This document shows, piece after piece, positions 8,921-10,358 of a DNA stretch of 57,075 nucleotides. Source of the DNA: Paludibacteraceae bacterium. Lineage in GTDB: Bacteria; Bacteroidota; Bacteroidia; Bacteroidales; Paludibacteraceae. The notes beneath the pieces are model-generated. The model had not been told where the DNA came from. It saw nothing but the letters and a program-made list of their open reading frames with translations, and did not search any database. The position numbers and the translations under genes were made by a program. Position 1 is the stretch's first letter. Every line of letters begins with the position of its first letter. The DNA is taken from assembly GCA_017962085.1 (NCBI GenBank), contig JAGCWA010000031.1, positions 1 through 57,075 on the forward strand. Direction: 5' to 3'.

Positions 8921-9022
8921 ACCCAAAGCCCCAATGGGGCGGCATCCCCCAGGCAGGGGTGTAAACCCCTGTGCTATGGGCGATGGGCGCAGGACGCAAC
9001 ATGAGCCCCGAAGGGGCGACAC
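8921..9022 (+). repeat. REP-like palindromic element, left copy of an inverted pair
   Basis: A GC-rich stretch of nested palindromes (GCCCCAATGGGGC, a CCCCCAGGCAGGGG core, GCCCCGAAGGGGC). Read on the minus strand it closely matches 10055-10149, so the two form an inverted pair about 1 kb apart. The type is common between genes in Bacteroidota and resembles REP elements spread by RAYT transposases. No transposase is in the window. Confidence 0.75.
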
Positions 9023-9141: not shown

Positions 9142-9372
9142 CTATTCTTCCATGACGTCCTCAACCTGTTTCGTGACGGCGGTAGAGGTGGTTTCCTCAC
9201 CCTCGAACTGTTTCAGTTCCTTCTCCAATTTATCCTTCCACTCATCAGCCGTTTTTTTAACCTTATCCTTAACTCTCTTGCAAGTCTCCTTGCCCTCTTC
9301 GGTATTCAACAAATAATTACCGAGCAACACTGCAGCGGCACCAAAGACCGCACCTTTCACAAAATTTCCCAT
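9142..9372 (-). CDS. YtxH-like small membrane-anchored protein
   Basis: 76 residues. A short hydrophobic segment (GAVFGAAAVLLGNYLL, residues ~6-21) is followed by an acidic/lysine-rich helix (EGKETCKRVKDKVKKTADEW) likely to form a coiled coil. This is the layout of YtxH-type stress or envelope proteins of unknown role. The ATG at 9372 fits the family; an earlier ATG at 9396 adds eight residues. A clear promoter precedes it at 9402-9431. It lies within the segment bracketed by inverted REP-like elements. Confidence 0.75.
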   Translation of the reverse strand: MGNFVKGAVFGAAAVLLGNYLLNTEEGKETCKRVKDKVKKTADEWKDKLEKELKQFEGEETTSTAVTKQVEDVMEE

Positions 9373-9401: not shown

Positions 9402-9431
9402 CAAATATAGGAATAAAATTGTATATAACAA
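9402..9431 (-). promoter_or_regulatory. Promoter of the YtxH-like gene
   Basis: On the minus strand TTG (9431-9429), 19 bp, then TATATTTG (9409-9402). This is a good Bacteroides-type promoter about 30 bp before the chosen start codon. Confidence 0.7.
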
Positions 9432-9559
9432 CGGCCCTTGTCAATATTTATACATTATTAACATTGCATATTTATTTACATAATTATTCCTAATTTATGC
9501 ATTATATCCCTATTTTATGCATATTTTAAAATATTTTAACCAAAAAGACTGTATATTTA

Positions 9560-9590
9560 TTTGTCAAATAAAAAACAATGCCTATATTTG
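9560..9590 (+). promoter_or_regulatory. Promoter of the micro-ORF transcript
   Basis: TTTG (9560-9563), 19 bp, TATATTTG (9583-9590): a full match to the Bacteroides consensus and among the best in the window. Transcription should start near 9594-9597, giving a leader of about 57 nt before the first micro-ORF. Confidence 0.8.
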
Positions 9591-9652
9591 CAATGTGATT
9601 CAACGAGGAATTACATAAACAACGAATAAATAACGTATAAAATTACAGAACT

Positions 9653-9733
9653 ATGGTTACAGCATTGGTATTATCGATCGCAGCTTGCTTCGTAGCAAAG
9701 GTAGTCATGACATTCGACACCATCAAAGGCTGA
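9653..9733 (+). CDS. Micro-ORF A: 26-residue hydrophobic peptide
   Basis: ATG at 9653 and TGA at 9731-9733 give 26 residues. They begin MVTALVLSIAACFVAKVV, a single possible membrane helix, and end with a short polar tail (FDTIKG). It is the first frame in a short transcript with its own promoter and terminator. It aligns without gaps to micro-ORF B around SIAA-x-F-x-x-K-V and in the tail (D/N, T/S, I/M), so the two look like a duplication. No family is recognised. Possible roles include a small membrane regulator, a type I-like toxin or a membrane-stress peptide; none is shown by the sequence. Confidence 0.6.
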   Translation: MVTALVLSIAACFVAKVVMTFDTIKG

Positions 9734-9789
9734 GAAAAGAAGAGTGAACAGAAGAAAACGAGTGATGAACCCTTAAAAATTTTACGAAT

Positions 9790-9876
9790 ATGATAGTAGC
9801 AACATTTTTGACGATCTCAATCGCCGCAGTTTTCGGAGTAAAAGTATATTTGGAAATTAATTCCATGAGTAAATAA
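9790..9876 (+). CDS. Micro-ORF B: 28-residue hydrophobic peptide, paralogue of A
   Basis: ATG at 9790 and TAA at 9874-9876 give 28 residues starting MIVATFLTISIAAVFGVKVY, then a polar tail (INSMSK). It shares with A an uncharged start, an SIAA core, a Phe two residues later, a Lys-Val pair three residues after that, and a hydrophobic/polar tail of the same length. It lies 56 bp after A in the same transcript. The retained pattern between two otherwise different sequences argues that both are translated. Function unknown. Confidence 0.6.
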   Translation: MIVATFLTISIAAVFGVKVYLEINSMSK

Positions 9877-9895
9877 CCCTATAATTAGAACTGAG

Positions 9896-9955
9896 ATGGA
9901 ACAGAATAAAAAACGACGGAAACAGCGAAAGCGGCCGTACAGCGTACGACAATAG
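9896..9955 (+). CDS. Micro-ORF C: 19-residue very basic peptide (possible)
   Basis: ATG at 9896 and TAG at 9953-9955 give 19 residues, with ten Lys/Arg in total and a dense basic stretch NKKRRKQRKR. Its stop codon touches the terminator stem. A weaker parallel is the 10-codon basic GTG frame after micro-ORF A (9744-9776, stop included, reading NRRKR). It could be a real cationic micropeptide or simply purine-rich RNA; evidence is weaker than for A and B. Confidence 0.35.
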   Translation: MEQNKKRRKQRKRPYSVRQ

Positions 9956-9994
9956 CCTCAATGGACAATATGATGTCAATTGAGGCTTTTTTTT
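9954..9994 (+). terminator. Intrinsic terminator of the micro-ORF transcript
   Basis: A 13-14 bp stem with one mismatch (AGCCTCAAT... with ATTGAGGCT) is followed by eight T (9987-9994). It closes a transcript of about 400 nt starting near 9595. Confidence 0.85.
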
Positions 9995-10054
9995 GCTACT
10001 AACAGGATAATTAAGAGTTAAGAGTTAAGAATTACCTAGCGCCTTTTCTACCAA

Positions 10055-10149
10055 GTGTCGCCCCTTCGGGGCTTATTCCACGTTGATGATTCTTTGCACA
10101 AGGGTTTACACCCCTGCCTGGGGGATGTCGCCCTTTCAGGGCTTGGGGT
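10055..10149 (-). repeat. REP-like palindromic element, right copy of the inverted pair
   Basis: This is the reverse complement of the 8921-9022 element with changes: the shared stretch runs from the GGGGCGACAC end through a GTGTAAACCC...GTGC segment to the CCCCCAGGCAGGGG core. More palindromes follow to about 10221 (CCCAGGG...CCCTGGG, GGCCTTGCAGGCC), probably part of the same repeat unit. The stretch 10222-10358 before the fumarase gene holds no clear promoter: GATATTTG near 10292 misses the consensus by one base and lacks a -33 box. Confidence 0.75.
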
Positions 10150-10358
10150 GTCCATATCACACCGCAGACCCAGGGTGTTGCCCTGGGCTATGTAAAGAGC
10201 TGGCCTTGCAGGCCGTGGGTAACATCTCCACCATCAAAGTCTAATGTCTAAAGTCTAGCGTCTAAAATTCTCTTCGAAACATCAAGGATATTTGAAAAAA
10301 AAGTTGTTACTTAGTCGCACAAAACGTAGAAACACATAAAACATTAAACAACAGAAAT

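Follow-up and report, generated by a model that had tools for sequence, protein, structure and literature searches.

Organization of the locus

The window, by which we mean the whole stretch of 57,075 nt analyzed here (contig JAGCWA010000031.1 of assembly GCA_017962085.1, Paludibacteraceae bacterium), carries three very short open reading frames (ORFs A, B, and C) between a promoter and an intrinsic terminator, with a divergent gene on the far side of the promoter. A sequence-only reading had described the promoter, the ORFs, and a terminator with eight T residues as one operon; re-reading the coordinates confirmed these positions, and the operon reading is supported.

9142–9372, minus strand: ytxH-like gene (76 aa), the divergent neighbor kept with the operon (Pfam YtxH match, synteny)
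9402–9432, minus strand: possible ytxH promoter, GTTG-N19-TATATTTG, one mismatch to TTTG-N19-TAnnTTTG and a mirror image of the operon promoter
9433–9563, plus strand: inter-promoter region with same-direction TGYATATTTAT and ATTTATRCA boxes (box counts over 14 related regions)
9560–9590, plus strand: operon promoter, TTTG-N19-TATATTTG (TTTG at 9560–9563, 19-nt spacer, TATATTTG at 9583–9590)
9593–9616, plus strand: hairpin at the presumed mRNA 5' end (RNAfold)
9630–9652, plus strand: pre-start element of A, ATAACGTATAAAA (13 of 14 A genes have AAC 19–25 nt ahead of the ATG, 1 of 14 has AAC(C/T) there)
9653–9733, plus strand: ORF A, predicted 26-aa single-helix membrane peptide (frame score, pN/pS)
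9762–9789, plus strand: pre-start element of B, GTGATGAACCCTTAAAA (AACC in 11 of 13 B genes, AAC(C/T) in 13 of 13)
9790–9876, plus strand: ORF B, 28-aa paralogue of A (frame score, pN/pS)
9869–9895, plus strand: pre-start element of C, GTAAATAACCCTATAAT, overlapping the B stop (AACC in 14 of 14 C genes)
9896–9955, plus strand: ORF C, 19-aa Arg/Lys-rich peptide with CGA at three of five Arg codons (frame score, synonymous changes, codon use)
9954–9994, plus strand: intrinsic terminator, its stem starting within the UAG stop of C (inverted repeat, RNAfold)

The operon promoter is an exact match to the TTTG-N19-TAnnTTTG consensus, the form quoted for Bacteroides (PMC7366714), and exact TTTG-N18-20-TAnnTTTG sites occurred five times in the window compared with 0.35 expected. 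The terminator stem pairs 9954–9962 with 9979–9987, and the T run extends to 9994. A simple terminator scan restricted to loops of 3–8 gave no terminator, but the inverted repeat and RNAfold do show one.

Predicted peptides and coding constraint

Peptides A (MVTALVLSIAACFVAKVVMTFDTIKG) and B (MIVATFLTISIAAVFGVKVYLEINSMSK) share an F-x-x-K-V core, in which F, K, and V were invariant across a 14-sequence A/B alignment. The gap-free match over SIAA-x-F-x-x-K-V noted earlier holds by eye for the pair in the window, but the 14-sequence alignment contains a one-residue gap between lineages. The six A/B peptides tested combined high mean hydrophobicity with a low hydrophobic moment, and by this composition A and B look like transmembrane helices. 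The core and the hydropathy thus support the prediction that they are paralogous membrane peptides, and both have the features of a small membrane protein (fewer than 50 codons, coding constraint, and one hydrophobic helix), as judged by codon constraint and by hydropathy and moment. Peptide C (MEQNKKRRKQRKRPYSVRQ) had been called basic, in agreement with its seven variants, which are 15–19 aa long with net charges of +6 to +8.

Codon-level comparisons agreed with the purifying selection previously suggested from the A/B likeness. Across seven close genomes, A, B, and C had pN/pS ratios of 0.34, 0.15, and 0, respectively, although these involve few variable codons (6, 11, and 2 in the same order, with both C changes synonymous). 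The trio L011–L013, with still fewer changes, gave 0.60, 0.37, and 0.12. The Arg and Leu residues of C are preserved where codons change between AGA and CGA or between CTG and CTC (L009, L041). In a frame-score test on nine representatives (eight for B), which are related and therefore not independent samples, protein similarity in the true frame was 489 for A, 662 for B, and 441 for C, compared with bests of 299, 222, and 230 among 400 column shuffles. For each ORF the true frame exceeded all 400 shuffles and the five other frames (z of 3.4, 4.7, and 3.6 for A, B, and C). This conservation supports translation of all three ORFs.

The same evidence bears on whether the transcript could be a non-coding or dual-function RNA in which the frames are incidental. 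Its 5' hairpin, strong terminator, and conserved nucleotides would fit such an RNA, and RNAfold recovered the hairpin in 13 of 14 leaders, with weak covariation (one pair varies among GC, GU, and AU, which 74 of 500 shuffles equaled). Given that protein conservation is frame-specific beyond every shuffle for each ORF, and that no Rfam family reached its gathering score within the window, we regard this explanation as very improbable.

Distribution among related genomes

The operon was found across most of one genus. A DNA search of 150 genomes, the window's own included, aligned it in 13 of the 16 genomes of that genus, and A, B, and C were all intact in 12 of these 13. The remaining genome, G009, keeps A and C and is missing B, so the A–B partnership is not obligatory. 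An A/B profile matched 14 of the 16 genomes at E < 1e-8, adding G002. Conserved homologues with kept frames, whose absence would have spoken against the genes, are therefore present. The two non-carriers gave no A/B profile match (G006) or a single one within a larger ORF, at E = 0.51 (G012).

Outside the genus, the best profile matches were E = 0.006 among 250 genomes of the family, 0.0016 among 393 of the order, and 0.005 among 395 of the phylum. No such operon was seen at six weak-match loci inspected for small ORFs (one in G012 and five in other genera) or at three more inspected for larger ORFs, and five weak hits outside the window's genome in wider samples (four plus one) had no motif-bearing ORF of 18–70 aa near the locus center. 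A search of 198 genomes of the order anchored on the ytxH-like gene gave three weak loci, two of which (L286 and L288) were without such an operon. A degenerate DNA pattern matched 81 stretches in genomes of named species; among the 80 listed, 11 encode these peptides, and this pattern could miss other relatives since it was built from B-like sequences. The 11 records are metagenome-assembled genomes labeled Paludibacteraceae (eight) or Bacteroidales (three), mostly from rumen or gut as judged by isolate names. From these searches the operon appears limited to one genus, with no convincing relative in the sampled genomes of the family, order, and phylum.

The view that the peptides match no described family was upheld for A and B, which had no match in Pfam, NCBIfam, PADLOC, or PDB sequences and a best PHROGs match of E = 0.087. 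Searches of the open PMC library turned up no paper that we recognized as describing the operon. A global catalogue of small ORFs is stated to predict ORFs from 30 nt (PMC11364881), so the peptides may already be listed there unnamed.

Size, a single helix, and a paralogous pair are also what one would expect if A and B were toxins of a type I-like toxin–antitoxin set silenced by an antisense RNA, a role proposed in the sequence-only reading. A promoter-like site on the minus strand inside ORF A (9696–9727, TTTG-N20-TACCTTTG, pattern TTTG-N20-TAnnTTTG) could serve such an RNA. However, this site is exact in only four of 14 A genes, and we gave the toxin role less weight because it is not conserved. 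The operon is also a single DNA match in its own genome at a syntenic locus, and B had no match in plasmid or phage records. The proposal was not supported on this evidence, and we judge it distinctly unlikely.

A conserved divergent gene and a shared intergenic region

The divergent neighbor matched Pfam YtxH at E = 1.4e-6 and 29.1 bits (query with one extra N-terminal residue), below the curated cut-off of 37.5, so we call it YtxH-like only. By coordinates, this gene is divergent from A in all 14 carriers, and the two non-carriers had no ytxH match at E 0.001. In another genus of the same family, four loci carry a ytxH-like gene and no ORF of 18–45 aa with F-x-x-K-V. In an unrooted tree of one gene, fumA, from 14 genomes (G003 and G011, whose fumA is fragmented, were omitted), the non-carriers form a fully supported pair between two carrier groups, which makes joint loss or joint gain likely.

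Genes on the 3' side are variable. fumA follows the operon in the window and in five of 12 fetched relatives, six have other genes, and one locus reaches a contig end; four of the six without fumA share the same 443-aa ORF, convergent with the operon. No neighbor other than the ytxH-like gene is shared by all 12 loci compared. We rejected a fumA attenuator because the gene 3' of the terminator is not conserved. In the two genomes without the operon (L277, L278), the stretch upstream of fumA resembles a tmRNA gene by eye.

This neighborhood is relevant to a second explanation, in which A and B serve as small structural parts of some larger membrane complex and their position beside the ytxH-like gene is incidental. 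CydX-like peptides, for example, are small subunits of oxidases. A constant F-x-x-K-V core within the helix and low pN/pS would suit a subunit, but restriction to one genus and absence from two of its 16 genomes would be odd for a core complex, and the ytxH-like gene is the only neighbor common to the 12 loci compared. We consider a subunit role rather unlikely.

Together, the divergent promoters make up an inverted repeat (I2; the possible ytxH promoter with 9561–9590) that is 73% complementary. We note that one-mismatch promoter sites by themselves are not above chance in the window (six found, 3.9 expected). Between the promoters, the boxes are strongly oriented: TGYATATTTAT occurred 24 times forward and never in reverse over 14 regions (shuffled mean for both strands 0.2), and ATTTATRCA occurred 25 times forward and once in reverse (shuffled mean 1.4), counts that are not independent because the regions are homologous. 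Thirteen TGYATATTTAT boxes lie at the operon promoter and 11 farther upstream, and all 25 forward ATTTATRCA boxes are upstream of that promoter.

Several other arrangements were observed around the locus. On the far side of the ytxH-like gene, the window has a convergent GH9 gene. At L041 (G002), L087, and L089, the ytxH-like gene is followed by a hydrophobic, holin-like protein of 119–121 aa (by eye) and then by a protein of 70–93 aa, an arrangement that may be an earlier form of the ytxH operon. Inverted GC-rich palindromic repeat units flank the ytxH-like gene and the operon at 8921–9022 and 10045–10220 (54 nt, 87% complementary), where Rfam Acido-Lenti-1 gave a sub-threshold match (32.4 bits, cut-off 37). 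Three of 12 relatives had similar units close to the locus. We rejected a mobile cassette, since the 0.67 Mb sampled of the same genome contains such units elsewhere too and none were at nine of the 12 relatives' loci.

Elements before the start codons

An AACC-like element lies about 21 nt 5' of the start codons of B and C, with a looser form before A, and is uncommon before other genes. At the same place, AACC preceded nine of 191 mechanically called ORFs of the window's genome and three of 124 in relatives' loci, AAC(C/T) preceded 19 of 191 and 13 of 124, and plain AAC preceded 36 of the 124; the 19–25 nt interval used for these counts was picked after the sequences had been inspected. The element remains with C in G009 despite the loss of B.

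A genome-wide regulon defined by the element was rejected. The pattern TAACCYTTNAAA-N6-13-ATG gave 16 matches in 16 genomes compared with 17 for a reversed control, which is chance outside the operon; six of the 16 matches were in the operon, in four of 14 carriers and without the window's own copy. A paired-box pattern gave no matches, the operon itself included, and was thus too strict.

CGA codons and the end of C

CGA, a scarce Arg codon, is over-represented in C. It accounts for 19 of 33 Arg codons over representatives of six lineages, compared with 8.1% of 3172 Arg codons in 194 ORFs of the window's genome, where half CGA was reached by none of the 167 ORFs that have five or more Arg codons. 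For the window's C alone, three CGA of five had a binomial probability of 0.005, calculated post hoc. CGA-CGA or CGA-CGG is present in all 14 C genes. Background CGA is higher in five outer-clade genomes (13.7%–18.8%), where C has two to four CGA codons. There was no tRNA-Arg with anticodon UCG among the Arg tRNAs found, in a set that is incomplete since tRNAs for Ala, Ile, and His are missing; from the tRNAs found, CGA would be expected to be read by the ACG tRNA. Translation in a his-leader assay in Salmonella, as outlined in PMC4046918, was slower with CGA, whether it stood alone or next to a second Arg codon.

The end of C overlaps the terminator. The last two bases of its stop codon were paired in all 14 terminator folds, in 11 within UAGCC at the stem foot and in three only with the U run, as an A-U extension. 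If slow CGA decoding and a stop in the terminator stem linked the speed of translation to termination or to the stability of the mRNA, C would be mainly a regulatory ORF; the CGA bias, the adjacent CGA-CGA or CGA-CGG codons in every C gene, and the stop reaching into the stem point in that direction. However, the amino acids of C are kept through synonymous changes, which argues that the peptide matters, no conserved gene lies 3' of the terminator, and in three genomes the stop meets only the A-U extension. A mainly regulatory C is therefore unlikely in our view.

Interpretation

We find it most economical to view the locus as a membrane-acting microprotein operon co-regulated with the ytxH-like gene; we consider both a type I toxin set and an attenuator less probable. 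More specifically, we tentatively propose, as close to an even prospect, a chromosomal operon of three microproteins in which membrane helices A and B tune an inner-membrane component, likely with the YtxH-like protein, during envelope or membrane stress. If expressed, A and B would insert as single transmembrane helices and bind or tune a different component of the inner membrane, most likely in concert with the divergent YtxH-like protein. The setting would be an envelope or membrane stress response, a role suggested by the YtxH link and by analogy, and the AT-rich stretch between the ytxH-like gene and the operon would regulate both sides. C would be a real Arg-rich peptide whose CGA-rich coding probably slows its translation, giving lower C output or paced translation at the mRNA 3' end.

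This proposal draws on conservation and codon-level constraint in all three ORFs, the high hydrophobicity and low moment of A and B, and the ytxH-like gene, which accompanies the operon in every carrier and is unmatched in non-carriers while downstream genes vary. It also draws on the mirror-image promoters with boxes between the genes, and on the CGA bias of C, the missing UCG tRNA-Arg, and the slow CGA in Salmonella. Against it are the sub-cut-off YtxH score, the ytxH-like loci of another genus without a motif ORF, the loss of B in G009, the higher background CGA in the outer clade, the incomplete tRNA list, the post hoc pre-start interval, and the occurrence of AAC(C/T) before other ORFs. 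A more elaborate version, which we think quite unlikely, is an all-microprotein membrane-stress module in which each cistron has its own initiation element, C is a CGA brake ending inside the terminator, and translation state sets output; Arg-tRNA supply or ribosome speed would then set the amount of the membrane peptides and of the YtxH partner system.

The ytxH linkage, the pre-start element, the CGA bias, the stop of C within the terminator stem, the 5' leader hairpin, and the restriction to one genus go beyond what had been read from the sequence before. Operons consisting solely of proteins under 30 residues evade usual annotation, and the comparative evidence for each ORF, a fixed neighbor, and testable cis elements make this one a tangible starting point for studying what microproteins do in uncultured gut Bacteroidales. 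Start codons in Bacteroidota mostly lack Shine-Dalgarno sites, and the operon offers a handle on how they are selected.

Comparison with known systems

Attenuator leader peptides are rich in codons of one amino acid. C likewise has a scarce-codon cluster and a stop beside a terminator hairpin, but it is the last ORF, and a conserved gene is absent 3' of the terminator. The type I toxins DinQ, TisB, and HokB, as generally described, are small hydrophobic single-helix peptides like A and B; in contrast, we found no conserved antisense promoter here, and the syntenic locus is confined to one genus. YohP of Escherichia coli (27 aa, stress-induced) falls in the same length class, has a single transmembrane helix, and changes membrane state (PMC12719787). 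Compared by description and not by sequence, YohP differs in that the account given there neither groups it with a paralogue and an Arg-rich peptide nor places it next to ytxH. MgtS, MgrB, and AcrZ are described in the same source as small proteins with a single helix whose targets are larger membrane proteins, as we propose for A and B, whereas here two paralogues lie in an operon of microproteins alone and the partner is putative. With no evidence of common descent, the analogy is one of mode of action: A and B may work in the manner of YohP- or MgtS-type small membrane proteins.
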